NCBI GenBank assembly: GCA_944380315.1
Contig: CALWHG010000015.1
Coordinates: forward strand, 1-39,720
From: an uncultured Lachnospiraceae bacterium
GTDB lineage: Bacteria; Bacillota; Clostridia; Lachnospirales; Lachnospiraceae
Direction: 5' to 3'
Length of the DNA: 39,720 nt
The notes under the pieces: model-generated
Database searches by the model: none
The model's input: only the letters and a program-made list of their open reading frames with translations
Told to the model about the DNA's origin: nothing
In this document: positions 9,110 to 37,826 of the stretch, in pieces
Layout: every line of letters begins with the position of its first letter
Numbering within the stretch: the first letter of the stretch is position 1
Program-made: the position numbers and the translations under genes

Positions 9110-10492
9110 TCAGGTCTCCTTTTCCTTGAGAAAATGAAGCATATAGGTCACAGCCAGCAGGTCTGCGCTCCCACCCGGGGATATGTTCATATCCATGAAG
9201 CGCCTGTCAAGATCTGACACCTTTTCCATGGAGGGATAGGGGTCGGATTCAAGGAGCTCTGAAAGCTCTCCTGCTATCCTCCTTTGCGTATTCAGGTCGC
9301 TCCTGGCTATGATATTTGTATCAACAGAATTGGCTATGATGGCAAGCAATGCGGCGCTTCCAGCTCTGTCCGGACCAAGTCCCCGGCGCAGGCCTTCCTC
9401 AAGCACTGGCAGTCCTGTCTCCGATACTGAGGGAAGTCCTGCCTCCATCTCACCTCTTACGCCGCTTATGCCATAAAGAGAGTAGAGTCTCTGCCCGGAG
9501 GTCTTTGCCTCAGACGGATCCAGATCCCCGAGTTCCTCCCTCACCAGGCCCTTTGTCATGTCTGCACAGGTGCCAAGCACCAGGCTGCTGTCGCCCCAGA
9601 GCTCCCGGGGCAGCCTTCCAAGGGCGGCACAGACTGTACCCATGGAAAAGATGGCACCCTTGTGAGTGTTGACCCCGGCCGTGGCGCTCAGCATGTGGCC
9701 TTCAGCCTCTGCCCCAAGCCCCCTTATGGCGGAAAATGTCTCCCTGGGAGGCTGATCGGCAGAATGCCGTCCTGCCATGAAGCACTGACCGAAGTAGGGC
9801 AGGAGGGCTGTGACACTGTCCACGAAGGTAAATATATCCATGTCCCTGTGGCTCCCGCAGTTGGCCCGATCCACCAGACCGGGCTTGGGAGTGGTACATA
9901 CCTCATAAAGCAGGGCCCGTGCTGCGGTGCTGCTTATATATGCCCGATCCTCCTCATCGAGGCCCTCCTTCAGGATCTGGAAGGTGCGGGCCTGAAGCTC
10001 CTCTGCACTGTGTCTCCTGCTTCCCGCACACAGCCTTACGTCACCTCCGCATATGATGCAGCTCCTGGGAGGAAGCCCAAGCTCAGAACGCTCCGCCTTC
10101 CTTCCCGAGGCATCCAGTACGTCCAGGTCAAACAGCCTTCCAAGGCTGTGGGTGGACTCTATGTCACAGCAGATGCTCTTCAGCCTCAGAGCATCATGAT
10201 CTGCCACATACATATCCTCGCAGCCTGTCTTTTCATCTATGGAGACGTGTCTGAGCACGGGTATATGCAGAGCCCTGAGACGCTCACAGAGGTATCTGTT
10301 CCCAAGGGCGGAGGCCCTCCTTATCATGGGAGAGTTCTTGACGGGGCCTGCTATGTTCATGGAGAAGCTTATGATCGGCTTTCCATATGCGGAAAGCAGC
10401 TCATGCTGGAGTGTGGCTCGTCTTTCCCGACAGTCCAGCATATCCGTGAGCTCACAGTAGTCTCCCTTATTGTCGTATATCCTGTATTCCAT
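9110..10492 (-). CDS. citXG: CitX-CitG fusion: holo-citrate lyase synthase and triphosphoribosyl-dephospho-CoA synthase
   Basis: A bifunctional protein that makes and attaches the citrate lyase prosthetic group. The N-terminal CitX half (about 1-160) has RERRATLQ, IAGPVKNS and HSLGRLFDLDVLD, then a Cys-rich CIICGGDVRLC segment. The C-terminal CitG half (about 190 onward) has TPKPGLVDRANCGSHRDMD, GVNTHKGAIFS and the final NISPGGSADLLAVT. I chose ATG 10492, which gives 460 residues and places the N-terminus as in separate CitX proteins. A GTG at 10528 would add 12 residues. Neither has a ribosome-binding site, but an extended -10 box sits 6 nt before ATG 10492, suggesting a leaderless message. 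It is followed by citC. Confidence 0.9.
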   Translation of the reverse strand: MEYRIYDNKGDYCELTDMLDCRERRATLQHELLSAYGKPIISFSMNIAGPVKNSPMIRRASALGNRYLCERLRALHIPVLRHVSIDEKTGCEDMYVADHDALRLKSICCDIESTHSLGRLFDLDVLDASGRKAERSELGLPPRSCIICGGDVRLCAGSRRHSAEELQARTFQILKEGLDEEDRAYISSTAARALLYEVCTTPKPGLVDRANCGSHRDMDIFTFVDSVTALLPYFGQCFMAGRHSADQPPRETFSAIRGLGAEAEGHMLSATAGVNTHKGAIFSMGTVCAALGRLPRELWGDSSLVLGTCADMTKGLVREELGDLDPSEAKTSGQRLYSLYGISGVRGEMEAGLPSVSETGLPVLEEGLRRGLGPDRAGSAALLAIIANSVDTNIIARSDLNTQRRIAGELSELLESDPYPSMEKVSDLDRRFMDMNISPGGSADLLAVTYMLHFLKEKET

Positions 10493-10498
10493 GCTATT

Positions 10499-10507
10499 AA
10501 TATAGCA
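10499..10507 (-). promoter_or_regulatory. Extended -10 element directly before citXG
   Basis: On the minus strand TGCTATATT (TGn plus TATATT) ends 6 nt before ATG 10492. If used, transcription would start at or next to the ATG, giving a leaderless mRNA. No good -35 box is seen. Confidence 0.35.
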
Positions 10508-10673
10508 TATCAGGGACACAGGATGCACGAAAAATTAACTGATGCATATTAGTAAAAACAATATAAATATTTGTGCATTTTAGAATAATATAGTGTACAA
10601 TAGATTAAAATATACGGATATTATGCCGAAGGCATTTCAGGTCCGCTTTTCGTAAGCATCGGGGTACTAAGCT

Positions 10674-13600
10674 ATGAGTGACAGCAGGCAGGAGACATCA
10701 GCCGACAGGAGCCTTGAAAAGAGGATAGAGGAGCTTCAGAAGCGCGCATCCAAGGATGAGCTTTCAGGCCTTCTTAACAGGTCTACAGCTGAGCAGTATA
10801 TCACTGCCCGGCTGGATGAGCTGCAGAAGGATGAGATGTGCGCCCTGTTCATTATAGACCTGGACGATTTCAAAATGGTCAATGACACTCTGGGGCACAT
10901 AGCGGGAGACCAGGCCATAAAAAAGAGCGCTCAGATACTTTCTGCCCTGTTCAGGGCAAAGGACATAGTGGGAAGGCTTGGAGGAGACGAGTTCATAGCC
11001 TTCATGAGCGGCAGTATCACGGAGCAGGAGGTCAGGGCCAGGGCCGCCTCCATATGTAAGGAGCTCCAGCTTATGCTCGGAGAGGAGCCCTCAGTAGATC
11101 TCACGGCAAGCGTGGGAGTATATCTTACGGGAGGAGTGGGACACCGCTTCAGCAGCCTTTATCAGTCTGCGGATCTGGCTCTCTATAAGGCTAAAAACGG
11201 CGGCAAGCACAGCTATTGTCTTAAGAAGGGACATGATACTGCACCTCAGACCGAGTCCTTCCACCCGGTAAGCGCGATTCCCCTTACTCAGCTCATGGAA
11301 TACATGGACGGAGGAGTGGCGCTGCTTGAGATGAGCGAGCCCATAGACATCATATATGTCAGTCCCAGCTTCCGCAGGAGCCTGGGGGTGGATCCCAGGA
11401 CCTACGTGCTGCCTAAAAGGCTCAGCGAGCTGGTGCATCCTGACGACAGGATAGAGCTTGAGCAGATGCTGAGGAAGGGAGTAAGAGATGGAGAGCCGGT
11501 GGAATATACGAACCGGGTATCTGGTGACGGCACCAGCTGGGCCTGGTGGCAGCTGAGAGCAGTACGTGTCAATTACAACGATCCCTATCCCGTCATGCTG
11601 GTGACGACTACGGATATATCCGGCTATAAAAACAATGAACGAAGACTGGAGGAGATGAATCAGAGGCTCCGCATAGCTCTTGATCAGACCACGGAGCGCA
11701 TGTGGGAGGTGGACCTGGAGACCAGACATTTCTCCATGTATGACCAGCAGGGAGACCAGATATCTGATACGGGAGAGGGAAACAGGTTCCCAGATTCACT
11801 CATAGAAGCTGGCCTGATACATCCCAGCTCCCAGGCCAGGTTCAGGGAGTTTGCAGAAAAGCTGCTTGGAGGGCATGTACAGGGCTTCGGCAACTTTATC
11901 ATTCAAAACGTTACCACCGGCTGCTATGGCTGGGCCACCCTTTCATATCGCATGGCCTTTGACGAGCTTGGAAGGGCCAGCAGGGCCATAGGCATCATGG
12001 AGGGCCTGCCCCCCAACTTTGTGGCAAACGAGGTGGTGTCGGTGCTCAGAAGACCGCTTCCTGAGGCCCTCCTGCCGGATCTTATAGCGGGCCTGCGGAC
12101 AAACCTCAGTCAGGATACGGTGGTGGAGCTCTGGATCGAAGGCAGGGACAGGAGCAGGAACCTTGTGGACACCAGCTGCTCAGGCTGTCTTGCGAGAGCC
12201 CGGGCTGCCATATTCAATGAAAAGGAACGTGAGAGCTATGCCTCGTATTTTTCAGTAGAGGAGCTTCTGGGACGCTTTCAGGAGGGAGATCGCTGGCTCT
12301 GGATAGATTATCAGCGCATCGAAGGCAGCGGAGATGTCAGATGGGTCAGGCATATAGCCAATCTGGTGGAGGATCCATTGACCAGGGAGGTCTATCTGTT
12401 CCTCTATATCTGCAACCTGGATGTCAAAAAATATCAGTGGGAAAATGCAGTCAAGGATGTGCCTCTGAGAGACAGCGTTACTCATCTCTATACCAGACAG
12501 GCAGTCAGGGATATAGCCGAGGCCATGCTCAGACAGGGAGGCACCGAGGAGATCGCCGTAGCAGTGGTGGATATAGGCGGCCTCAGCAGGCTTTATGAGC
12601 AGGACGCCCAGGCGCTTAACAGAGGCCGGTATTATCTGGCGGCAGCATTTACGGTGGCTCTGGGGACGAGCCGGATACTTGCCAGATACAGCACGGATCA
12701 GCTGCTCGTCATATTCCCCAAGGCCGCTCCACAGCATGAGCTCAGGGAGCAGCTTGAGTCAGCATTTTCCTTTGTCAGGCTGGTGCTGTCGGACAGCATG
12801 GACATCCAGTCCATGCGCTTTGCGGCGGGAGTGGTCAGCGCCTCTGCCCAGATAGCAAACATAAGTGCCATGGCCATACAGGCATCGAACCTGTGTCAGC
12901 TCTGGCAGCGGGCCTCCTCGGACGTGGTGGCATTTCCCCATGAAAATGATGACTGGTCCTGGACAAATCTGCATAAGGACATAGAGGAGGATAAGGTCGA
13001 TATATATGGAAGCTCCGAGATGAAGAGGCCCCTGTCCCAAAGCGAGAAGGACGTGGCCTTTGACTGTATGTCCATCATGCTGTCAGCGGACAGCCTTGAA
13101 AATTCACTTTATGGGGTGCTCAGCTATATAGGAGATTATTACAGGGCTGACAGAGTATACATACTTACTCTTGCTCCAAATGGGCGGGTAGTGACCATGG
13201 CCTGCGAGTGGACGGACGGCAGGAAGCACAGCATCCAGCAGACTGTCTCCGGGGCGGTCATAAACAAGTTCCCTCTCCTGGAGCGCTGCATAAAGGAAAA
13301 GGCGCCGGTATTTCTTACGAGGGAGACACCCATATCCCTGCAGGGAGAGCCGCCGGTGGCAGATACCTGGCATTTTACGGCCTTCCCTCTTATGGAAAGG
13401 GAGGACATAACCGGCTTCCTCTGCATAGAAAATGCGAGAGAGCATCCCGCCGATGCGGCGGTGTTCAGTACTCTGATACCATACATACTCAAGGAACAGG
13501 AGCGGTACGGAAGCAGGACCACAAACACTATAAGCTCTTCAGGAAAGACCCTGGACATACCGGATCTGAGATCCTACATGAAGGCCATAGCGGAGCTTGA

Positions 13601-14777
13601 CTCCGACAGATACAGCTCCATGGGAGCAGTCTGCGTGGATATACCAGACATGTCGGTCATAAATGGCAGCCTCGGGTTTGAGTACGGCAGCCGTATGCTC
13701 TGGTATGTGTCAAAGACCCTGACGGATATATTTGGGCCGGGCAGCATCTACCATACCTGGGATGCGGAGTTCGTGGCCCTGTGCCCCAATACCACGAGAC
13801 AGGTGTTTGACGGCAGGTGCCTGAGGCTCAGGAGCCTGCTCAAGCGCCGGTATCCCAGAGAGATATCCATGGGCTTTTCCTGGTCGGACGGCAGGTTCCA
13901 GGCCAGGGATCTGGTCAAGGAGGCAAAGGAGCTGATGCAGGGTGATCCCCGGAGCGGATTCCGAAGCGGAGTGGGGAGCACCCACGAGGCCATAGAGCCT
14001 GCAGCCCAGTCAGATCGCTTCAGGATATACCTTCAGCCCAAGGTGGACATGAGGTCAGGGGAGCTCTATGGGGCTGAGGTGCTCGTCAGAGGCGTGGATG
14101 ACCATGGCTCCCTGATCCTGCCGGGAGAGTTCATACCGGAGCTTGAAAGGGACGGCGGCATAAGGGAGCTGGACCTGTTCGTGCTGGATCAGGCACTTGC
14201 CCAGCAGGAGCAGTGGGTCAGGGACGGATTTGGCGTCATACCCATATCCGTAAACCTTTCCAGGGTCACGCTCCTGGGACCTACGGCGCTGGCATCGGTG
14301 CTGGCCATACAGAGCCGATATCCCCTGGTACCGGCTGAGGCCCTGGAGCTTGAGATGACTGAGAGCGTGGGAAGCGAGACCGGCTCCCTGCAGGAGGTGG
14401 TGGACCAGTTCCGTCAGTGCGGCATAAAGCTGGGACTGGATGACTTCGGGTCAAAATATGCCAACCTTTCACTGTTTACAAATGTCCACTTTGATACCAT
14501 CAAGCTGGACCGTACACTTATATCGGATATCATCAGAAACCCCATAAACCGTATGCTGGTCAGTGACATAGTCAGGATATGCGGAACAAACGGCTCCGTA
14601 TGCATAGCGGAGGGGGTCGAAAAGAAGGCTCAGGCCGAGGCACTCATGGAGGCGGGCTGCAGATATGCCCAGGGCTTCTATTATGACCGTCCCATGCCGG
14701 GAGACATGTTTGAACAGAAATATCTGCGTGGGAGGACGCAGGTCGTGGAGCGGAACGATCAGGAGGATCACAGATGA
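10674..14777 (+). CDS. GGDEF-PAS-PAS-(GGDEF-like)-GAF-(GGDEF-like)-EAL protein
   Basis: A 1367-residue soluble c-di-GMP enzyme with no membrane helix. Domain order by residue: an intact GGDEF cyclase at 25-185 (GGDEF 103-107, inhibitory-site RAKD 94-97 spaced five residues before it); PAS at 205-320; a second PAS-like region at 330-445; a further PAS-like region at about 455-590; a degenerate GGDEF at 595-755 (STDQL at 673-677); GAF at 790-925; a second degenerate GGDEF at 960-1090 (WDAEF at 1029-1033); and EAL at 1112-1345. In the EAL domain E1135-V-L, N1194, E1227, D1256-D1257, K1277, E1313 and Q1333 are all present, so phosphodiesterase activity is plausible. Both making and breaking of c-di-GMP are possible. 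It overlaps the next gene by ATGA. The GTP-fold copies without motif may sense nucleotides. Confidence 0.9.
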   Translation: MSDSRQETSADRSLEKRIEELQKRASKDELSGLLNRSTAEQYITARLDELQKDEMCALFIIDLDDFKMVNDTLGHIAGDQAIKKSAQILSALFRAKDIVGRLGGDEFIAFMSGSITEQEVRARAASICKELQLMLGEEPSVDLTASVGVYLTGGVGHRFSSLYQSADLALYKAKNGGKHSYCLKKGHDTAPQTESFHPVSAIPLTQLMEYMDGGVALLEMSEPIDIIYVSPSFRRSLGVDPRTYVLPKRLSELVHPDDRIELEQMLRKGVRDGEPVEYTNRVSGDGTSWAWWQLRAVRVNYNDPYPVMLVTTTDISGYKNNERRLEEMNQRLRIALDQTTERMWEVDLETRHFSMYDQQGDQISDTGEGNRFPDSLIEAGLIHPSSQARFREFAEKLLGGHVQGFGNFIIQNVTTGCYGWATLSYRMAFDELGRASRAIGIMEGLPPNFVANEVVSVLRRPLPEALLPDLIAGLRTNLSQDTVVELWIEGRDRSRNLVDTSCSGCLARARAAIFNEKERESYASYFSVEELLGRFQEGDRWLWIDYQRIEGSGDVRWVRHIANLVEDPLTREVYLFLYICNLDVKKYQWENAVKDVPLRDSVTHLYTRQAVRDIAEAMLRQGGTEEIAVAVVDIGGLSRLYEQDAQALNRGRYYLAAAFTVALGTSRILARYSTDQLLVIFPKAAPQHELREQLESAFSFVRLVLSDSMDIQSMRFAAGVVSASAQIANISAMAIQASNLCQLWQRASSDVVAFPHENDDWSWTNLHKDIEEDKVDIYGSSEMKRPLSQSEKDVAFDCMSIMLSADSLENSLYGVLSYIGDYYRADRVYILTLAPNGRVVTMACEWTDGRKHSIQQTVSGAVINKFPLLERCIKEKAPVFLTRETPISLQGEPPVADTWHFTAFPLMEREDITGFLCIENAREHPADAAVFSTLIPYILKEQERYGSRTTNTISSSGKTLDIPDLRSYMKAIAELDSDRYSSMGAVCVDIPDMSVINGSLGFEYGSRMLWYVSKTLTDIFGPGSIYHTWDAEFVALCPNTTRQVFDGRCLRLRSLLKRRYPREISMGFSWSDGRFQARDLVKEAKELMQGDPRSGFRSGVGSTHEAIEPAAQSDRFRIYLQPKVDMRSGELYGAEVLVRGVDDHGSLILPGEFIPELERDGGIRELDLFVLDQALAQQEQWVRDGFGVIPISVNLSRVTLLGPTALASVLAIQSRYPLVPAEALELEMTESVGSETGSLQEVVDQFRQCGIKLGLDDFGSKYANLSLFTNVHFDTIKLDRTLISDIIRNPINRMLVSDIVRICGTNGSVCIAEGVEKKAQAEALMEAGCRYAQGFYYDRPMPGDMFEQKYLRGRTQVVERNDQEDHR

Positions 14778-17329
14778 GCGATTATATGGAAAAAAATGAA
14801 AATGTTTCTAAGATGGCTGTTCCCATGATCATAGGCATAGGAGCATCTGCGGGTGGACTGGAGGCGCTTCAGCAGTTCTTCAGAGTCATGCCCAGCAACA
14901 GCGGACTGAGCTTCGTAGTCATTCAGCATCTCTCTCCGGATTATAAGAGCCTTATGGCGGACATATTGAGCAAGCATACTGACATGACCGTTATACAGGC
15001 AGTAGACAGGATGCCTGTTGAGCCGGATACCGTATACCTGATACCTCCCAAGAAGTTCATGACCATAAAACAGGGCAGGCTCATACTGTCTGACTATGCT
15101 CCAGGAACTCTCAATCATCCCATAGACGTGTTTTTTGCTTCACTTGCTGAGGAGAAGAAGGAGCATTCCATAGCGGTGGTGCTCTCAGGCACCGGAAGCG
15201 ACGGTACAAACGGAGTCAAGGCCATAAAGGAGTATGGAGGCCTTGTCATGGCTCAGGCCCCTGAAAGCGCCAAGTTTGACGGCATGCCAAAGAGCGTGAT
15301 CAATACGGGCCTTGCGGACTTCGTGCTTTCGCCTGAGGAGCTGGCAGAGGAGATACTCAACTTTTCCTCTACGCCCGTATTGCTGCCTACTCCCAAAAAC
15401 GGCAGTGCCTCGGCAGAGGAGGATGAGCTCTTTTCCGAGGAGGAGACTCTTTCCCATATATACACCATACTCAAAAATGCCAGCGGCATAGATTTTACCT
15501 ATTACAAGAGATCCACCATACTGCGCCGCATAGAGAGGAGGATGCTGGTAACCCATACCAGCAGTCTGTCGGAGTTCTCCAGGCTCCTGGGAGACAATCC
15601 TGAGGAGGTCAACATCCTCACCAAGGAGATCCTCATTGGCGTAACAAACTTTTTCAGGGATCCCGCATTTTTTGAGAAGCTGAAATATAACGCCATATAC
15701 AAGATCGTGGAGAGGGCAAAGGAGGATGAGCCCATAAGGGTATGGAGCGCAGGCTGCTCCACAGGCGAGGAGGCCTACTCCCTGGCCATACTTTTCCATG
15801 AGGTCATGGAGGAGCTGGAGGTACAGAGGGATATCAAGATATTTGCCACAGATGTGGACAGCAGGGCCATAGAGCAGGCCGGACGGGGCGTATATTCCGA
15901 AAACATCATAGATGATGTGACGCCGGATCGGCTTGCCAGATATTTCATGAAGCAAAATGACCAGTACCACATCAATAAGGAGATCAGGCGGATGATCATC
16001 TTTGCGACCCATAACATGTTTTCTGATCCGCCCTTTGGAAAGCTGGACCTCATAAGCTGCCGCAATGTCATGATATATTTCCAGCCCGTCATGCGCAGGG
16101 GCCTGTTTGCCATATTCCATTCTGCCCTTAAAAACGGAGGCTTCCTGTTCCTGGGAAAGAGCGAGACCGCAGGAGAATATGTCAACCTCTTCAAGCCTGT
16201 ATGCTCAGCTGAAAAGATATATGTGCACAAGGCTGACGGCAAGGTGGAGGACCTGACTCCACCCTCCTTCAACATACCAAACATCAATACCATCTCACTG
16301 AAGAACATACATGCGGGCATGAGCCAGAGCGCTGATGATGTGAAGGAGAGCCAGTATACCCATTTCCTGGAGGATTTCCTTCCGGCCTCAGTGGTCATAA
16401 ATCAGGAGGATACGGTGCTGCATTTCTTCGGGAACTACACGGACTATCTGTCACTGGCTCCCGGCAAGGCCACCCTCAACTTCTTCAGCATGATATGCAA
16501 GGACCTGTCCCTGGTTTCAGCCACTGCCATAAGCAGATGCCGTACGGACCACAAGTCCGTCACCTACACGGACATAGTGGTGGATACGCCCTCAGGACGC
16601 AGGACCATAGATCTGACAGTAAAGCCGGTGCCCTCGGAGGATGGAGAGGAGAGCGAGCTCACTGCCGTGCTCTTCCTTGAAAATGTGCGCCAGGATCAGG
16701 AGGGCGTGGTAGAGAAATATGATGTGGATGCCACAGCTGCCCGCCGTATAGCTGATCTGGAAAGGGAGTTCCAGGTATCACAGAGCGATCTTCGCCAGAC
16801 CATACAGAGGCTGGAGACGGTTAACGGAGAGCTTCAGGCGGCAAATGAGGAGCTCCTTACAGCCAACGAGGAGCTTCAGAGCTCGACGGAGGAGCTGCAG
16901 TCAGTAAATGAGGAGCTCTATACGGTCAATACGGAGCACCAGCTCAAGCTGGATGAGCTGACCATGATGACGAATGACCTGTCAAACTTCCTGTCCTCTA
17001 CCATGATAGGCATACTTTTCGTGGACAGCAATCTCAACATACGTAAGTTCACTGAGTATGTGGGCAGGGAGTTCCAGCTCATGGATCACGACATAGGAAG
17101 AGGCATCCAGATATTTGCCCACAGCTTCCCGGATGAGGAGATAGAAAAGGACTGCCATACGGTGCTCAAGGATCTGACCACCATAGACCGGGAGGTCACT
17201 GCCACGAACGGGAGACATTATACCCTGCGCATAGCGCCCTATCGTACTACCGAAAACAATATAAGAGGCCTGGTCATCACCATCATCGACTCTCTGGGAG
17301 TGGACAGGGAGACCGACGGCAAGGGCTGA
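14774..17329 (+). CDS. CheB-CheR-PAS fusion (protein-glutamate methylesterase/methyltransferase)
   Basis: An 851-residue cytosolic fusion. The CheB methylesterase domain (15-195) has Ser25 in GASAGG, His52 in IQHLSPD and Asp143 in GTGSDG, so the catalytic triad is complete, but it lacks the receiver domain of classical CheB. The CheR methyltransferase domain (225-485) has the SAM site WSAGCSTGEEAYS (324-336), Asp360 in ATDVD, and SCRNVMIYF (428-436). A PAS-like region (525-640) follows. Next is a long coiled coil (655-735) with repeated NEEL/TEEL units, then a terminal PAS (738-840). This is a known fusion class usually tied to signalling kinases rather than to flagellar chemotaxis. No chemoreceptor is present nearby. 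Its ATG overlaps the stop of the GGDEF/EAL gene (ATGA), so the two are translationally coupled. Confidence 0.92.
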   Translation: MSDYMEKNENVSKMAVPMIIGIGASAGGLEALQQFFRVMPSNSGLSFVVIQHLSPDYKSLMADILSKHTDMTVIQAVDRMPVEPDTVYLIPPKKFMTIKQGRLILSDYAPGTLNHPIDVFFASLAEEKKEHSIAVVLSGTGSDGTNGVKAIKEYGGLVMAQAPESAKFDGMPKSVINTGLADFVLSPEELAEEILNFSSTPVLLPTPKNGSASAEEDELFSEEETLSHIYTILKNASGIDFTYYKRSTILRRIERRMLVTHTSSLSEFSRLLGDNPEEVNILTKEILIGVTNFFRDPAFFEKLKYNAIYKIVERAKEDEPIRVWSAGCSTGEEAYSLAILFHEVMEELEVQRDIKIFATDVDSRAIEQAGRGVYSENIIDDVTPDRLARYFMKQNDQYHINKEIRRMIIFATHNMFSDPPFGKLDLISCRNVMIYFQPVMRRGLFAIFHSALKNGGFLFLGKSETAGEYVNLFKPVCSAEKIYVHKADGKVEDLTPPSFNIPNINTISLKNIHAGMSQSADDVKESQYTHFLEDFLPASVVINQEDTVLHFFGNYTDYLSLAPGKATLNFFSMICKDLSLVSATAISRCRTDHKSVTYTDIVVDTPSGRRTIDLTVKPVPSEDGEESELTAVLFLENVRQDQEGVVEKYDVDATAARRIADLEREFQVSQSDLRQTIQRLETVNGELQAANEELLTANEELQSSTEELQSVNEELYTVNTEHQLKLDELTMMTNDLSNFLSSTMIGILFVDSNLNIRKFTEYVGREFQLMDHDIGRGIQIFAHSFPDEEIEKDCHTVLKDLTTIDREVTATNGRHYTLRIAPYRTTENNIRGLVITIIDSLGVDRETDGKG

Positions 17330-17336
17330 TGGCCCG

Positions 17337-17377
17337 GGCTCAGGGCGACCAGGGACATACTGAGGTCGGGCTGAGCC
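17337..17377 (+). other. Stem-loop in the 85-nt gap before the third operon gene
   Basis: GGCTCAGGGCGACC (17337-17350) faces GGTCGGGCTGAGCC (17364-17377): 7 bp, a 2x2 internal loop, then 5 bp, with a 13-nt loop. There is no T-run, so it is not a standard terminator; RNA stability or processing is possible. Confidence 0.45.
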
Positions 17378-17414
17378 TGAATTATACGATAAGACCGGAA
17401 AGGAGGATGAGACC

Positions 17415-18788
17415 ATGTCTGAAGCATTCATACCATGCGATGGAGATGACAGAAAGAAGACGGCCATAGAGCTGACACGCTTCCTGGTGCACAAGCATTA
17501 TTGTGAAAATGATTTCCTGGCGGATGAATCCCTGTTTGACGAGCCCTTCCTCTGGTTCGGAGCAGCAGAGCATGAGTTTGCCTCAGGAAGGGAGACGGTG
17601 CTCGATATATTCAGACAGTTTACTGGCAAGGTGCCCAGATGCAATATAGCTGATGAGGAATATACCTCGGAGATGATCGCTCCTGATGTGTGCCTGGTGG
17701 CGGGAAGGATGTGGATATCCACGGACCCCTCTACGGAAGTATATCTGAGAGTGCATCAGCGCATAACCACCTGTATCAGATGGACAGGAGACAAGGCCAG
17801 GTGCTGCATGCTCCATGTCTCAAATCCCTATACGGAGATGGAACAGGACGATGTGGGCTTTCCGACCCGTATGGCCCAGCAGTCAAGGGATTATATGGCT
17901 CAGCAGATCGAGGAGCAGAAGCAGAAGATATCCAGTCAGGCCTCAGAGCTTTCAGATATCTACAATACTGTCTCCTGTGGCATACTGCGCCTGATCAGGA
18001 AGGAGGATGGATACCATCTGCTCACCTTCAATCATGCCCTGGCAGAGCTCATGGACAGGACTGAGGATGAGGTGTGGGCCATGGACTGGTCCATGGGCTT
18101 CGGAGATGATGTGGACGAGGTCGATATACCAAGGCTCAGATCCTCCATAGACAGGCTCGCAGGGCCTGGAGACCGGTCCTCCATAGATTACAGGATAGTG
18201 ACATACAGGGGCAGGACCGTATATCTGACCAGCATCAATGACTATATATCATCGACGCCGGAGGGAGAGATCATACAGAGGCTGACCTATGACATATCGG
18301 ACAGGGTGGCTCTGGAGACGGCCCTTCAGAGCCTGAGCTTCTATGATACCCTTACCGGAGTATTCAACCGCAACCGGTTCAATGAGATCATAACCGAGTA
18401 TAGTGACAGGGAGCTCCTGGGCCTCGGAGTGGCGGTGTTGGACATCAATGGCCTGAAGAAGGTCAATGACGGTCTGGGCCATGTGGCAGGGGACGACCTG
18501 CTCATGCGTACCGGCAGACACATAAATGAGATCTTTCCGGGAAAGGCCTTCCGCACCGGAGGAGATGAGTTCGTCATAGTGGATGAGGAAGGCGACAGAG
18601 ACAGCTTTGAAGCCCAGGTGGCCTCACTCAGGGTATTGCTTGCCAGGGATGGCATAAGTGTAGCCATAGGCACCTGCTGGCGGGACAGTGAGTGTAGCGT
18701 ATGGGACCAGGCCGAGGAGGCAGATAAGGTCATGTACCGGGAAAAGCAGGAGTACTATATCCAGTCGGGGGGGGTGAGCAGAGTCTGA
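17415..18788 (+). CDS. NTF2/SnoaL-like - PAS - GGDEF diguanylate cyclase
   Basis: A 457-residue soluble protein. Residues 10-140 resemble an NTF2/SnoaL-like fold (SnoaL_3 type: an early helix, then FLWFGAAEHEFASGRE, and a strand-rich end). Residues 155-180 form a short coiled coil. A PAS-like region spans about 185-300. The GGDEF domain lies at 305-450 with DTLTGVFNRN (311-320) and an intact GGDEF at 382-386. The RxxD inhibitory site is absent at the expected place, so product inhibition through it is unlikely. The start has AAAGGAGGATGAGACC before ATG. It is the third gene of the signalling operon, converging on the hybrid kinase with a 30-nt gap. The N-terminal call is by fold impression only and is the least certain part. 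Confidence 0.85.
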   Translation: MSEAFIPCDGDDRKKTAIELTRFLVHKHYCENDFLADESLFDEPFLWFGAAEHEFASGRETVLDIFRQFTGKVPRCNIADEEYTSEMIAPDVCLVAGRMWISTDPSTEVYLRVHQRITTCIRWTGDKARCCMLHVSNPYTEMEQDDVGFPTRMAQQSRDYMAQQIEEQKQKISSQASELSDIYNTVSCGILRLIRKEDGYHLLTFNHALAELMDRTEDEVWAMDWSMGFGDDVDEVDIPRLRSSIDRLAGPGDRSSIDYRIVTYRGRTVYLTSINDYISSTPEGEIIQRLTYDISDRVALETALQSLSFYDTLTGVFNRNRFNEIITEYSDRELLGLGVAVLDINGLKKVNDGLGHVAGDDLLMRTGRHINEIFPGKAFRTGGDEFVIVDEEGDRDSFEAQVASLRVLLARDGISVAIGTCWRDSECSVWDQAEEADKVMYREKQEYYIQSGGVSRV

Positions 18789-18818
18789 CGTTCGCTGAAC
18801 ATGAGGCCCGCTAAAGCC

Positions 18819-21029
18819 TCAGGCCCGGGTGCCTGCCAGGCAGCCTCTGATGGTGCGTATCAGCTCCTTTGGATCTATGGGCTTTATGACATGGTCATTT
18901 ATGCCGGCAGCCTTCTGAGCTGCTATATCCTCTGAAAATACATTTGCAGTGACTGCTATGATGGGTATGGTCCTGCTGTCAGGGCGATCAAGGGCCCTCA
19001 GACGGCGACTGGCCTCGAGACCGTCCATCACAGGCATCTGCATATCCATAAGTATGATATCGAAGGAGCCCTCGGGAGCAGCTTCAAAGCTCTCCAGGGC
19101 TTCCTTTCCATTCCAGGCACTCTGTACCCTGGCGCCCTGGGCGGACAGAAGCTCCAGGACTATCTCCATGTTTATCTCGTTGTCCTCTGCAAGGAGTATG
19201 CTTACGCCCTTGAGCGGCTCCCTGTCATCAGAGGCATTTTCATTGACGGTATCGGGCGCGGCGGCAGGTGCCTCCGCGGCCTTGAGCAGCGTAAGAGTCA
19301 CGGTAAATTCGGTGCCCTCATCCATCTCACTTTCCACCTTTATGCTTCCGTTCATATAGTTTACGAGAGTGTAGACTATGGACATGCCAAGCCCGGTGCC
19401 CACTGTGCTCCTGCTGGTGAAGCGGTCCTCCTGATAATAGGGCTCGAAAAGGTGAGGCAGGAACTCCTTACTCATGCCTATGCCAGTGTCCCTGACTATG
19501 AGGGTATATATGACGGTATTTCCTGATATGGAGTGGCTCAGTCTCGTGCTGATGCTGTCACCGGGAGAGGTGAATTTGATGGCGTTTGACAGGATGTTGT
19601 TTATGATCTGGACCACTCTGTCAGGGTCACCGAGCACCGGCCACTCATCCTGTTCTATGACCATATGGAAGTCCTTTGACTGAGAGAGGGCCTGAAGCCT
19701 GAAGGGCTCCAGTGCAGCCTCTATGGTGCCGCTCATGGAGAAGGCCCGTTCATTGAAGCTGAGCCTGCCCTGCTCTGCCTTTGACATGTCCAGTATGTCG
19801 TTTATGAGTGTCAGCAGCTGCTTTCCAGAAAATTCTATCTTGGAAAGATAGTCGGCCACCTTAGCCTTGTCGTCCAGCCTGTCCTTTGCAAGGCCGGTCA
19901 TGCCCAGTATGGCGTTCAGGGGAGTACGCATGTCATGGGACATGTTGTTGAAGAAGGCCTGTCTGGCCTTCATGTTGCGGTCCGACATCTCCAGGGCGTC
20001 CTGGAGCATCTGACGCTCACGAAGCTGCAGCTGCTTGGCCTCATTGACCTCACGGAAGCAGAGCAGCACCTCATCCTTGTCAAGGGACTCATCAAAGCGC
20101 AGGCTGACATTTACCCATCTGTATTCTCCGTCGAAATTCCGGAGGAAATCGCCGCCAAAGTCTCTGATGCGTGTCTGTATGAGCCTTTTTATATTGTCTA
20201 TGGAGAAGCTGTCACAGAAATCCCGGAAGGCCGACTCCTCTATGACCTCTCCGCTGGTCCTGAGGAAATCCTCGTAGTTTCCCTTGTCGGGCATACGGTC
20301 TCTTACGTGCCTTGAACCCCTGACCAGCTCATAGGTATGGTCTGCATAATTGACACGATAGAGCCCATAGTAGGTATTGCTGAGGGCCCGTATGGTGGAT
20401 ATGAGCCTCTCGTTCTGCTTCCTCTCCCTGAGGGCCCTTGTGATCATGACTATGTTTGCCACGAGGAACATCAGGGCTATAAACGAAAAAATGGCTATGT
20501 ATATCCTCAGGCTTCCAAATATGGCGGCATAGGGCATGGTCACTATGGACCAGCCTCCGTCCTGGGTCCTCACATGATAGACGCCTCTCTGCCTGCCCTC
20601 CATGTCTCTGATATGATCGTCATAGCGTCCCAGCTCACCTGACTCTATGCGGGCTATGAGCTGACGGGCAAAGCGGGAGACGGTCTCTTCATCATATTCA
20701 ACTTTCGTGTCATGGAAAAGGAGCCTCCCATCCTTATCGCACAGAAAATAGGACATGCCCTCCATATATCTGTCCATGCCGAAGACATAGTCTATGGTAC
20801 CGCTCTCAGCATCGTACTCCGATGCATATATGCCTGCCAGAGAGGTGGCGCTCACGTAGCTGAACCTGAGGAGTGCATGATAGAGTATGGACACGGCCAT
20901 GAATATGGCTGCTATGACCATGAGGAAGGTGACGATATTGAGCCAGAACATGCTGATGAACTCTGCCGATCTTTTTGTGAGGCTCTTCTTTAGGGACCTG
21001 CCGTCATGCCGGCTGTCTTCATTTTTCAT
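18819..21029 (-). CDS. Hybrid sensor histidine kinase (HisKA-HATPase-REC)
   Basis: A 736-residue membrane kinase. TM1 is at 24-52, an extracytoplasmic sensor at about 53-172, TM2 at 173-196 and a PAS-like domain at 215-330. HisKA has His365 in SHDMRTPLN. The ATPase domain has the N box NNILSNAIKF, G1 DTGIGMS and G2 GTGLGMSIV. A C-terminal receiver (607-730) carries the acidic pair E615-D616, phospho-acceptor Asp662 (ILMDMQMPVMDG), Thr694 and Lys716. All catalytic residues are present. ATG overlaps the stop of the upstream Hpt gene (ATGA). It is the last gene of a three-gene operon that supplies a complete phosphorelay: kinase, internal receiver, Hpt, and the REC-HD-GYP output. The ligand is unknown. 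Confidence 0.94.
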   Translation of the reverse strand: MKNEDSRHDGRSLKKSLTKRSAEFISMFWLNIVTFLMVIAAIFMAVSILYHALLRFSYVSATSLAGIYASEYDAESGTIDYVFGMDRYMEGMSYFLCDKDGRLLFHDTKVEYDEETVSRFARQLIARIESGELGRYDDHIRDMEGRQRGVYHVRTQDGGWSIVTMPYAAIFGSLRIYIAIFSFIALMFLVANIVMITRALRERKQNERLISTIRALSNTYYGLYRVNYADHTYELVRGSRHVRDRMPDKGNYEDFLRTSGEVIEESAFRDFCDSFSIDNIKRLIQTRIRDFGGDFLRNFDGEYRWVNVSLRFDESLDKDEVLLCFREVNEAKQLQLRERQMLQDALEMSDRNMKARQAFFNNMSHDMRTPLNAILGMTGLAKDRLDDKAKVADYLSKIEFSGKQLLTLINDILDMSKAEQGRLSFNERAFSMSGTIEAALEPFRLQALSQSKDFHMVIEQDEWPVLGDPDRVVQIINNILSNAIKFTSPGDSISTRLSHSISGNTVIYTLIVRDTGIGMSKEFLPHLFEPYYQEDRFTSRSTVGTGLGMSIVYTLVNYMNGSIKVESEMDEGTEFTVTLTLLKAAEAPAAAPDTVNENASDDREPLKGVSILLAEDNEINMEIVLELLSAQGARVQSAWNGKEALESFEAAPEGSFDIILMDMQMPVMDGLEASRRLRALDRPDSRTIPIIAVTANVFSEDIAAQKAAGINDHVIKPIDPKELIRTIRGCLAGTRA

Positions 21030-21373
21030 ATGGCTGCTTTCATCCTTTCATAAAGGGGTCTTATCCTGTCCATCATATCCCGGGCTGCTGCCACATCTCC
21101 GCCCCGAAGCAGCTCGGTCTGCCTGGAAAAAAGCTCATAAAGCGCTGTCATGGAGAGGTTGCCTGTCATGCCCTTGAGGGTATGGGACAGGGAAAATGCC
21201 TTTTCACATGACCCTTCATCCAGGGCTTCAGAAAGGGCCTGAAAGCTCTGATCTTCTTTCCACTTCTGGAGGAGACGGCCAAGGAGGGCCTCATTGCCCA
21301 TAAGCCTGTCGAGTGCCTGATCCACGTCAAGTCCCTCGAGTCTGAGTCTGTCAAGATATGTCCTGTCCATCAC
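21026..21373 (-). CDS. Hpt-domain phosphotransfer protein
   Basis: A 115-residue single-domain histidine phosphotransfer protein. The phospho-acceptor His lies in the canonical motif SLSHTLKGMTGNL (about residues 62-74), inside an all-helical bundle. It is expected to carry phosphate from the receiver of the hybrid kinase to the receiver of the HD-GYP protein. Its start lies inside the 3' end of the upstream HD-GYP gene (23-nt overlap) and its stop overlaps the start of the kinase by 4 nt, so the three genes are tightly coupled. Confidence 0.92.
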   Translation of the reverse strand: MMDRTYLDRLRLEGLDVDQALDRLMGNEALLGRLLQKWKEDQSFQALSEALDEGSCEKAFSLSHTLKGMTGNLSMTALYELFSRQTELLRGGDVAAARDMMDRIRPLYERMKAAI

Positions 21374-22478
21374 TTTGTATCTCCTTTACTGCATAAAGCT
21401 TCCTCATGGCCGGTTCTGCCACTTTGAAGGCTGCAAGGGCCGTAGGCCCGAAGGCTCCGCACTTGCCTGAGATGATCATGTCCTTTGCTTCGTCGAAGCT
21501 GTAGGCCTTTTTATATACCCTGTCATTTACCAGTGCATCATAGCAGTCCGCCAGAGCCACTGCCTGGCTCCATATGGGTATCTCATCGCCTCTGAGCCCA
21601 TCCGGATAGCCCCTCCCGTCGTAGCGCTCATGATGATGTCTGGCTATGTCATAGGCATATACAAATCCGGGATGCTCACGCATCTGAGGGATCTTTTCCA
21701 GAAATTCCGCACCTCTAAGAGTATGGGTCTTCATGACCTCAAATTCCTCTGCTGTCAGTCTGCCGGGCTTGTTGAGGATGGCATCGGGTATGGCTATCTT
21801 GCCTATGTCGTGCATGATGGAGGCAGTGGCTATGATCTCTATGGTCTCATAGCTCATGCCGACTCCAAGCTCCGTATTGAGCAGCAGGCACTTTGTGATG
21901 TCGTGTATGCGCTTTACGTGGCTCCCGGATTCTGCGGAACGGAACTCTACTGCAGTGGACAGCACCTCTATCATGCTGTGATTAAGCTCAAGTATGCGCC
22001 TTGCCTGCTCATCCAGCTGATGCTGCTGCTCCTCTACCCTGGCCCTCAGCCTCTTCCTGGCCATGAAGAGCTCTATGACCGAGTCCACTCTCCGGCGGAC
22101 CATATAGGGGACGACGGGCTTTGCTATGGTGTCCATGACTCCAAGAGCATAGGCCCTGCTCAGCACCTGAGTATCAGACTCGGCTGTGATGAGGAATATG
22201 GGTATGCCTCCGTTCCAGCCTTTGCTGCGTACCTTTTCCAGGAACTGGATACCGTCCATGACCGGCATCATCACGTCAAGAAGGACAGCTGCTATGTCCG
22301 GGATATCCGAAAGCAGCAGCCTTACGCCCTCCTCTCCGTTGGAAGCCTCCAGGATCTCGTAGTCATCGGAAAAGATATTTGCCAGGATCATGCGGTTAAG
22401 CTCATCGTCATCGACGATGAGTATCTTCCCAGGCATCCTTGTGGTAGTCATGCTTGTCTCTGTCTGTATACTGTCCAT
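21351..22478 (-). CDS. Response regulator with HD-GYP c-di-GMP phosphodiesterase output (RpfG-like)
   Basis: A 375-residue protein. The receiver domain (about 15-135) has DDD, phospho-acceptor Asp68 in LLDVMMPVMDG, and Lys in TIAKP. A coiled linker follows, then an HD-GYP domain (about 165-355) with HD 223-224 in MHDIGK and the GYP loop HHHERYDGRGYPDG. All metal-binding residues expected for a c-di-GMP phosphodiesterase appear present. The start is decided by the ribosome-binding site: GGAGAGG sits 6 nt before ATG 22478. A TTG at 22523 would extend the frame by 15 residues but has no such site. It is the first gene of the phosphorelay operon. Confidence 0.93.
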   Translation of the reverse strand: MDSIQTETSMTTTRMPGKILIVDDDELNRMILANIFSDDYEILEASNGEEGVRLLLSDIPDIAAVLLDVMMPVMDGIQFLEKVRSKGWNGGIPIFLITAESDTQVLSRAYALGVMDTIAKPVVPYMVRRRVDSVIELFMARKRLRARVEEQQHQLDEQARRILELNHSMIEVLSTAVEFRSAESGSHVKRIHDITKCLLLNTELGVGMSYETIEIIATASIMHDIGKIAIPDAILNKPGRLTAEEFEVMKTHTLRGAEFLEKIPQMREHPGFVYAYDIARHHHERYDGRGYPDGLRGDEIPIWSQAVALADCYDALVNDRVYKKAYSFDEAKDMIISGKCGAFGPTALAAFKVAEPAMRKLYAVKEIQSDGQDIS

Positions 22479-22527
22479 ATCCGGCCTCTCCAAGCTGAAA
22501 AACGACGACACTGTCTTTACCAATAAT

Positions 22528-36333: not shown

Positions 36334-36378
36334 GGACTGATCAAGTATTGATCCGAAGAAATTGATTCAGTCCTTTTT
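36334..36378 (+). terminator. Second plus-strand terminator overlapping the 3' end of the wall-binding gene
   Basis: GGACTGATCAA (36334-36344) pairs with TTGATTCAGTCC (36362-36373), with a one-base bulge, followed by TTTTT (36374-36378). The right arm and T-run lie inside the last codons and stop of the converging gene. Confidence 0.55.
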
Positions 36379-37800
36379 ATACCTGTCTTCACCCTGATAA
36401 GTGACTATGCCATTTTTATCGGTGCAGTAATAGTATCCATCGCCGTCCTTTATATTGGTACGGTTCTTCATGATCTTTCCGGAAGAGCTTATGAGGTAGG
36501 ACTCACCGTCATATTCATATATCTCATAGCGCATATCCGGATCGGCCTCCATACGTCTGCCGTTTACATAGATCGCATCGCCGTCTATGCCGTTTACTCC
36601 CGAACCTCTGAGCTTTCCGGACTTTTCAAACTTGTATGTAAGTCTTTCTCCGTCCAGAAGGATGGTGCAGGTGCCTGTCTTCATGGCGCCTTCCTTGGGG
36701 GAATCTCCAAAGTAATACACCAGTGCTTCACCAGGATCTTCAGGGAGCTCATCTATGGTCTCTATGAGGTGACCGTCTATGATGGTCTCTCCATCTTCAT
36801 CCATCTCAAGGATGTAAAGTCCATGGAGCATCTTTCCATAGCCATCAAAGGCATAGCGTATACCGCTGATGTTTTTGATCTGAGAAGTGGCGGTCACACC
36901 CTTCTTGTCTGCGTAGTACCAGTATTCCTCACCAAGGTCTGCTCCCTCAGGATCCTTCTCAGGGTCGGGCATAGCCTTGAACCAGCCTGTGCGGAGCCAG
37001 CACTGCATCTCCTCGCTGTAATAGGAAGCGCTGCTTGAGGATGCATCCTGATACCAGTCATAGTTTGCAACTCCATATTCATTGAAACGATACTTCCTGC
37101 CATTTATGGTCTTGTTGACCTTGTCGGTCACCTTTTTGCCTGAACCGTCAAAGAAGAACCAGTAGCCGTCACCGTCTCTTTCTTCATTGTCCTGATCCTC
37201 TGCGTAGATGTATGCCCAGCTGTTTATGACCAGTCTGCCTCCGTTGTTGGGGTCTGCATAATAGGTGCCCTCTCTCCAGGCGTCATCACCGCTCAGCATC
37301 TGTCCATCCTCGCTTATCCATCCGGAAAGCATGTGGCCCATCTCATCGAAGATGAATTTTGCGTTGCCTGCCTTGGTGGGGACAGTGGCCACCTTGGTAC
37401 GGTCACTGGTCTGCCTTATGGCCCTGCCGTTTGAACCAAGGTAGTACCACCAGGTATCGGGCTCATCATAGGAGTACTTATCGGTGTTTTCCACCTCGCG
37501 CCACTCATTTGATACCATTGCTCCTGCAGAATTTACATAGTAGAAGTTCTGTCCCTCCTCGACTATGGTGCTGTAAAGCATGTCTCCTGATGAATCCAGA
37601 TAGAAATAATTGTCTCCGGAGCGTTTGAAGCAGTCGGTGGCATAGCTTCCGTCATAGTTGATATAGTGCCAGTTGCCTGATTCCATGCTCCAGCCTGCCG
37701 CCAGTGCGGTGCCGCTCATGGCAAGCATTGCAAGGGCCGTAAATGCCGGGACGCATATGCCCCTCTTTCCATATTCGTTTTTATATCTTTTTTTCAACAT
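36367..37800 (-). CDS. Secreted protein with choline-binding-type cell wall repeats
   Basis: A 477-residue exported protein. A Lys/Arg-rich N-terminus, a hydrophobic core (VPAFTALAMLAMSG) and an ALA-A cleavage site form a signal peptide. The mature part is built of degenerate aromatic-Gly repeats of about 20 residues of the CW_binding_1 (choline-binding) type, e.g. GNWHYINYDGSYA, NYFYLDSSGDM, NFYYVNSAGAMV, TWWYYLGSNGRA and YWFFFDGSGKKV. They are spread across almost the whole length; I see no catalytic domain. It is probably a surface protein held on teichoic acids or wall glycans. ATG 37800 is preferred because GAGGTG lies 6 nt upstream; ATG 37809 is too close to it. Confidence 0.85.
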   Translation of the reverse strand: MLKKRYKNEYGKRGICVPAFTALAMLAMSGTALAAGWSMESGNWHYINYDGSYATDCFKRSGDNYFYLDSSGDMLYSTIVEEGQNFYYVNSAGAMVSNEWREVENTDKYSYDEPDTWWYYLGSNGRAIRQTSDRTKVATVPTKAGNAKFIFDEMGHMLSGWISEDGQMLSGDDAWREGTYYADPNNGGRLVINSWAYIYAEDQDNEERDGDGYWFFFDGSGKKVTDKVNKTINGRKYRFNEYGVANYDWYQDASSSSASYYSEEMQCWLRTGWFKAMPDPEKDPEGADLGEEYWYYADKKGVTATSQIKNISGIRYAFDGYGKMLHGLYILEMDEDGETIIDGHLIETIDELPEDPGEALVYYFGDSPKEGAMKTGTCTILLDGERLTYKFEKSGKLRGSGVNGIDGDAIYVNGRRMEADPDMRYEIYEYDGESYLISSSGKIMKNRTNIKDGDGYYYCTDKNGIVTYQGEDRYKKD

Positions 37801-37826
37801 ATCATTCACCTCAGCCTTTTATGTCC

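Follow-up and report, generated by a model that had tools for sequence, protein, structure and literature searches.

Proteins that join CheB and CheR in one chain, which we take to be those collected under KEGG K13924, are common, and to our knowledge their substrate is unsettled. A CheB-CheR hybrid is reported from Rhodospirillum centenum (PMC2890560). For the Wsp system, a published account describes WspC and WspF as thought to act on the receptor WspA and so to control the cyclase WspR, with WspA methylation predicted and never confirmed by experiment (PMC8552884). Here, we describe a locus within a 39,720-nucleotide stretch of DNA from an uncultured Lachnospiraceae bacterium (contig CALWHG010000015.1 of assembly GCA_944380315.1; hereafter the window), in which a gene for a CheB-CheR fusion (protein B) follows one for a large GGDEF-EAL protein (A). 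Both stand beside genes for a GGDEF protein (C), a hybrid histidine kinase (D), an Hpt protein (E) and a REC-HD-GYP protein (F; Table 1). Our analysis centers on A and B, which we find to be near-obligate partners, and on the possibility that B adjusts the breakdown of cyclic diguanosine monophosphate (c-di-GMP) by A. Judged by titles and the beginnings of abstracts, searches of the open-access literature yielded no study in which a GGDEF/EAL protein is the partner of a CheB-CheR fusion.

Distribution of the A-B gene pair

A search of genome contigs with B returned 297 confirmed relatives, the best 80 of which (48-86% identity in their best segments) were used for all locus counts. The titles of these best 80 of 297 records name Bacillota, Actinomycetota (including Collinsella isolates), Spirochaetota and Desulfovibrionaceae, spanning four phyla, and several name chicken. 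Claveliimonas bilis and Anaerotignum lactatifermentans An390 are represented in the set. The Spirochaetota and Desulfovibrionaceae records are metagenome-assembled genomes (MAGs) or bins, in which wrong binning is possible. The genome set as a whole is skewed to MAGs, and gene counts come from mechanical open reading frames (ORFs) and from profiles built for this analysis.

Of the 80 loci, 78 include sequence upstream of B (L086 and L095 have a single base there), and 76 of these have an A-type gene next to B. This gene lies upstream on the same strand in 72 cases, 21 of which have a four-base A/B overlap as judged from mechanical start codons. These 72 include nine loci in which A is contig-cut, frameshifted or short, as well as L091, where A runs into B in one ORF. 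The remaining four loci are coriobacterial, with A and B convergent (L088, L099, L100 and L103). Distances between A sequences correlate with those between the corresponding B sequences (r 0.91 for 60 pairs, a value reached by none of 2000 permutations), with A far less conserved than B.

The same partnership is seen across whole genomes. Among 61 relatives, full-length B and strong matches to the A core (aa 361-959; E ≤7e-64) occur in the same five genomes, and 27 other genomes have separate CheB or CheR matches only. Among 392 genomes of the order, all five with B at ≥79% identity have the A core (E <1e-150), and no A core was found at 1e-15 in the nine that have distant CheB-CheR fusions only (37-43% identity, some partial). 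One genome of the order, G114, carries a broken A and a B remnant. The near-obligate partnership of A and B, which make up the core of this locus, is well supported.

In a FastTree tree of 60 B rows, the four Actinomycetota form one group; placing the three Spirochaetota takes three changes, of which two or more fall on starred branches. The B of the window groups with an Oscillospiraceae record (L093, 86%), and that of a congener (G019, 70%; on the same contig as L077) falls in another starred group. We read this tree as suggesting transfer between lineages, for which it falls short of proof.

Some loci show irregular arrangements. In L113 and L091, A runs into B remnants after loss of internal DNA. 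We rejected such natural A-B fusions as evidence of interaction, since internal stretches are lost and L113 is also frameshifted, and we read both as decayed or misassembled. Separately, the spirochaetal contigs of L050 and L048 are 93-98% identical in their longer matching stretches, with other DNA at A's place in L050, reflecting either a natural deletion of A or an assembly fault.

Domains of A and B and a candidate methyl acceptor

The initial annotation called A a GGDEF-EAL protein. Both domains are present (Pfam GGDEF at aa 26-178, with an intact motif and RxxD upstream, and EAL at aa 1106-1340), but this description is too small for what lies between them. A structural model of aa 195-1100 (mean predicted local distance difference test score, pLDDT, 84.5; predicted template-modelling score, pTM, 0.58), read by its secondary structure, suggests three PAS-like folds, a GGDEF-like fold, a GAF domain and a further GGDEF-like fold. 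Over its cut-off, Pfam reports a single PAS_3 domain in A; at a permissive cut-off, it reports three GGDEF stretches and a weak GAF. In an alignment of 66 A rows, counted after rows shorter than 1000 aa or with an open left end had been dropped, the EAL residues E, N, E, DD, K, E and Q are kept in 65-66 rows. The motif of the N-terminal GGDEF domain is less constant: 40 rows have it intact, 19 have it in altered form and 7 lack it. Because of this difference in conservation, the predicted conserved output of A is probably c-di-GMP breakdown.

B carries both halves of a CheB/CheR fusion in one chain with their catalytic motifs (GASAGG, QHLSP and GTGSDG in CheB; SAGCSTGEEAY in CheR), followed by an EE-heptad coil and PAS_10; Pfam finds no receiver domain in it. 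The catalytic motifs are near-invariant across 74 B rows, a set from which rows outside 780-960 aa had been dropped, and invariant in a 46-row alignment (51 prepared rows minus five). The most conserved part of B is a segment of the coil, aa 684-722, with a mean identity over the 74 rows of 0.96 (35 of 39 positions at ≥0.96), compared with 0.88 for PAS_10, 0.855 for CheR and 0.815 for CheB. In an ordinary coiled coil, buried positions are expected to be kept and surface positions to drift.

Within this coil, glutamate pairs recur from heptad to heptad. All 74 B rows contain four to six EE pairs in a chain with a spacing of 7, and four to seven pairs are so arranged in 16 distant fusions (L110, seven found in genomes of the order and eight on proteobacterial plasmids); shuffled versions of the window's coil gave at most two EE pairs in a chain over 5000 trials. 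In chemoreceptor methylation helices, E-E or E-Q pairs likewise recur in heptads, accompanied by small residues. Their methyl-accepting consensus, which we take to be [ASTG]2xx[EQ]2xx[ASTG]2, has a full match in 3 of the 16 distant fusions, counted anywhere in the protein, and the half motif EExx[ASTG][ASTG] matches twice in the window's B, at 692 and 699. Because its EE pairs stand in successive heptads and its conservation is the highest in B, B's own coil is the best candidate for the methyl acceptor, and a candidate only.

Chemoreceptors and the D-E-F phosphorelay

The initial annotation raised the possibility that B acts only on chemoreceptors encoded elsewhere. We sought the domains of methyl-accepting chemotaxis proteins (MCP; PF00015) and of CheW (PF01584) in 36 genomes of our own, non-random choosing, 11 of the window's genus and 25 with loci, 30 of which carry B. 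Neither domain was found over the cut-off in 27 of these 30 B-carriers or in G000, and 7 of 14 control genomes were positive for these models; G003 has one sub-threshold MCP match. The three B-carriers that do have MCP and CheW matches over the cut-off are the genomes of L067, Treponema L090 and Desulfovibrionaceae L082. Single absences are weak, as some congeners are incomplete and the 25 locus-derived genomes are of unstated completeness, but the 27 together are not. PF01584 is, we assume, also the C-terminal domain of CheA, and CheA is therefore probably missing from those carriers too. Given the lack of MCP and CheW, B is unlikely to serve chemotaxis in these 27 carriers, and we rejected for them the view that it serves chemoreceptors encoded elsewhere.

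D-E-F is a looser partner of A-B than A and B are of each other. Using the C-terminal 388 aa of D (kinase core and receiver) as query, we found close D relatives in exactly the five B-carriers among 25 congeners (60-67% identity in this search, 58-69% by blastp of ORFs), with only copies of ≤45% identity in eight of the other 20 and no match at E 1e-40 in 12. The two operons thus co-occur in relatives, as the initial annotation had expected, with the A core, full-length B and close D in the same five congeners. A probability of 1 in 53130 for this exact co-occurrence presupposes independent genomes and is not relied on here. In the four other congener carriers, D adjoins E and F on a contig separate from that of B; neither A nor B lies in the 16-17 kb around D in G003, G010 and G019, and in G018 D is near a contig end. 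On a tree of rpoC from 18 of the 25 congeners, including all five carriers (six lacked a match and one had a split match), the B label has to change four times, with three or more of these changes on starred branches. A-B and D-E-F were thus probably gained or lost jointly on more than one occasion in the genus. As an observation apart, D-like hybrid kinases number 23 in the 2.3-Mb genome of the congener G014, which has no B, in a genus where 12 of 25 congeners have none at E 1e-40.

Linkage of D to the pair is also found beyond the genus. A D-type hybrid kinase lies within the flanks of 13 of the 80 loci (binomial P 1e-13 to 2e-5 at assumed chance rates of 0.008-0.04, uncorrected for kinship), and D, E and F occur together in nine, in varied orders and strands (L031, L035, L040, L045, L046, L051, L052, L099 and L103). 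A count of D linkage in 9 of 21 genomes was set aside in favor of the 13 of 80, since those genomes had been chosen once it was clear which loci contained D. Genes for a hybrid kinase, an Hpt protein and a REC-HD-GYP protein stand side by side on one strand in the window, in all of these nine except L099 and L103, and in L126, a locus outside the 80 that reads F-E-D-A-B in one direction, as does L031. Across the order, a D-like kinase is present in four of six A-carriers (one of them G114, with its broken A) versus 13 of 386 other genomes (Fisher P 3.5e-5, uncorrected for kinship). C with its N-terminal domain is found in 4 of the 80 loci. Given the A-B and D linkage counts, the six-gene grouping exceeds chance. 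Of the conserved six-gene block initially proposed, the A-B core (76 of 78 loci) stands, and a rigid six-gene system (D-E-F in 9 of 80, C in 4) does not.

In the window, the plus-strand genes A, B and C converge on the minus-strand genes D, E and F. All six ORFs lie where they had been annotated, with Pfam support, and their catalytic motifs are intact by eye. Among them, A has RLGGDEF together with its EAL residues, C has GGDEF, D has SHDMRTP as well as a receiver aspartate, and E has SHTLKG. The overlaps reported within each operon were likewise found, at four bases for A/B (with AGGAGG preceding the B start), four for D/E and 23 for E/F. The label NTF2-GGDEF, initially given to C, is borne out in its GGDEF part; the sole basis for an NTF2-like part is a sub-threshold SnoaL_3 match (E 0.057). 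Neither a tRNA nor an Rfam match at gathering score lies in the window, and promoter and terminator scans of it returned about as many matches as in shuffles.

Table 1. Coordinates and predicted features of the signalling locus in the window.
Feature	Position	Strand	Description
A	10674-14777	+	1367 aa; GGDEF-PAS-PAS-PAS-degenerate GGDEF-GAF-degenerate GGDEF-EAL; predicted c-di-GMP phosphodiesterase with regulatory domains
B	14774-17329	+	851 aa; CheB-CheR_N/CheR-PAS-like-coiled coil-PAS_10; Pfam CheB 1.8e-58, CheR 1.2e-57, PAS_10 2e-23
B coiled coil, aa 651-742	16724-16999	+	Single 92-residue helix in the predicted model; EE at aa 692/693, 699/700, 706/707 and 713/714, spacing 7
C	17415-18788	+	457 aa; weak SnoaL_3-like N-terminus, C-terminal GGDEF (2e-17, intact motif); occasional partner
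D	18819-21029	-	736 aa hybrid histidine kinase; hydrophobic N-terminal segments (by eye)-HisKA-HATPase-REC
E	21026-21373	-	115 aa Hpt phosphotransfer protein; Pfam 1.1e-8; SHTLKGM motif
F	21351-22523	-	390 aa REC-HD-GYP; predicted second c-di-GMP phosphodiesterase and phosphorelay output; HDIGK and GRGYPDG motifs

The locus is flanked at left by citXG and citC on the minus strand and at right by oligopeptide ABC transporter genes. A single ORF of 472 aa (window 9110-10528, minus strand), which adjoins citC, encodes a CitX-CitG fusion, and no citrate lyase subunit is among the 20 flanking ORFs scanned. Farther right, positions 36367-37809 (minus strand) encode a 480-aa protein whose N-terminal part bears choline-binding repeats.

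Proposed mechanism and comparison with known systems

We propose that B is a self-contained methylation module that probably modifies its own coil and thereby sets the phosphodiesterase of A, with D-E-F as a separate input to the same c-di-GMP pool, a reading to which we assign a probability of roughly 0.5. Taking each enzyme activity as its motifs predict, the PAS domains of B would sense some signal, and its CheR half would add, and its CheB half remove, methyl esters on the EE-heptad coil that separates the PAS domains, either in cis or inside a dimer. How far the coil is methylated would determine its signalling state, with slow adaptation of the kind that methylation gives chemoreceptors. 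B would contact A directly and so set its EAL phosphodiesterase output, balanced by A's GGDEF domain where that is intact. Separately, the membrane hybrid kinase D would pass phosphate through its own REC domain to E and on to F, whose HD-GYP domain would also degrade c-di-GMP, and C would add a cyclase.

Several observations weigh against parts of this proposal. Loop 6 of the EAL domain reads DDFGSxYANL in the A family, where the usual sequence is, we assume, DDFGTGYSSL. L050 keeps an intact B without A, by comparison with L048; L110 is a CheB-CheR-PAS-kinase-receiver fusion with no A; and weak A-core matches without B occur in 3 of the 61 relatives (E 3e-5 to 3e-4) and in 4 of the 392 genomes of the order (E 1e-16 to 2e-18, 21-27% identity). 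The strict chemoreceptor consensus has no full match in the window's B, and the start of the coil (aa 651-683) has a mean identity of 0.815, no higher than CheB. The extreme conservation farther along the coil could reflect dimerisation or partner binding, and the structural model of B is weak (mean pLDDT 71, pTM 0.35). Nor is D-E-F obligatory: matches to D at E 1e-40 occur in 21 of 31 B-carriers, 13 of 386 genomes of the order that have no A-B contain a D-like kinase, and D of the Actinomycetota loci is only 36-42% identical, which falls short of showing orthology.

The methyl acceptor could lie outside B. If B methylated A itself, for example on linker helices between its PAS, GAF and GGDEF domains, A would be the methyl-accepting protein, which would suit the strict pairing of the two. 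Two columns of A have mixed E and Q by our cut-off (941, in the helix after GAF, and 1043), and Q at such columns would fit CheB deamidation sites. However, these are just 2 of 1367 columns, against 1 of 851 in B; the 66 A rows contain no EE-pair heptad chain (at most two pairs); and A is far the less conserved partner. We consider this explanation unlikely, and we rejected a methylation helix in A after a search over its alignment whose sole yield was those two columns. It is improbable, too, that B methylates D or another membrane sensor, with D as the module's receptor. Close D relatives do accompany A-B in the genus, D-type kinases lie near 13 of 80 loci, and among eight distant fusions that we viewed (regions from seven of the nine order genomes with fusions, plus L110), L115 and L116 adjoin a kinase and L110 and L118 are fused to one. 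Yet in 10 of 31 B-carriers nothing matches D at E 1e-40, and as a companion of B, D is far less constant than A.

Methylation could also be beside the point, with the CheB and CheR parts acting as scaffolds or on small molecules, and B serving as a PAS-coil adaptor for A. The coil and PAS_10 are indeed more conserved than either enzyme domain, but catalytic motifs as constant as those of CheB and CheR are unexpected in dead scaffolds, and we hold this to be very improbable. A different doubt concerns D-E-F, which might lie near A-B merely since signalling genes cluster, the modules being functionally independent. A D-type kinase is missing from 67 of the 80 loci, many of those incomplete, and D-like kinases exist without A-B. 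Set against this are the binomial excess of linked loci, the association across the order, and the exact co-occurrence in the genus despite D being on another contig than B in four other carriers, which together leave independence doubtful.

The coupling of CheB-CheR fusions to c-di-GMP may have arisen more than once, because distant fusions in one other genus of the order (L114, L117, L119 and L130) adjoin GGDEF-HD-GYP genes. The kinase-fused L118 is also next to a GGDEF-EAL gene. More tentatively, CheB-CheR fusions at large might be self-contained adaptation devices whose own EE-heptad coil is methyl-accepting, providing carboxyl methylation without chemoreceptor, CheA or CheW. In many gut bacteria their output would be an adjacent c-di-GMP phosphodiesterase, the pair having moved between phyla and the coupling perhaps having been repeated. 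If true, protein methylation with adaptation would be a general sensory device beyond chemotaxis, and gut commensals without chemotaxis genes would use it to set c-di-GMP. As chemoreceptors are mostly absent and the partner is nearly constant, the question of the substrate becomes testable with two proteins.

Among known systems, Wsp is the closest in logic, in that CheR and CheB homologues feed c-di-GMP (PMC8552884). Wsp differs in having the receptor WspA and the CheA-like histidine kinase WspE, whereas MCP and CheW are missing in 27 of 30 B-carriers. The initial annotation considered a c-di-GMP circuit tuned by protein methylation and a phosphorelay to be new. CheR/CheB-linked control of c-di-GMP is already known from Wsp, which uses a chemoreceptor and a CheA-like kinase (PMC8552884), and the novelty would lie in such control without a chemoreceptor in most carriers tested. 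Other CheB/CheR fusions, for example those on Azospirillum and Mesorhizobium plasmids, share with B the order CheB-CheR-EE coil and 33-48% identity over most of the protein (16 distant examples). B differs in having no fused kinase, such as L110 and L118 have, in adjoining an A-type c-di-GMP enzyme and in occurring in carriers that, where tested, are mostly without chemoreceptors; in seven of eight plasmid loci the ORF reaches 1036-1452 aa through additional C-terminal parts, against 851 aa for B. For A, the best PDB fold match of aa 195-1100 is DosP (12% identity), a PAS-GGDEF-EAL phosphodiesterase, from which A differs in its extra GGDEF, PAS and GAF domains and in its CheB-CheR partner. D-E-F, in turn, resembles RpfC/RpfG, which also combines a hybrid kinase, an Hpt function and a REC-HD-GYP protein; in the locus described here, however, the Hpt is a separate protein, and the relay is linked to A-B.

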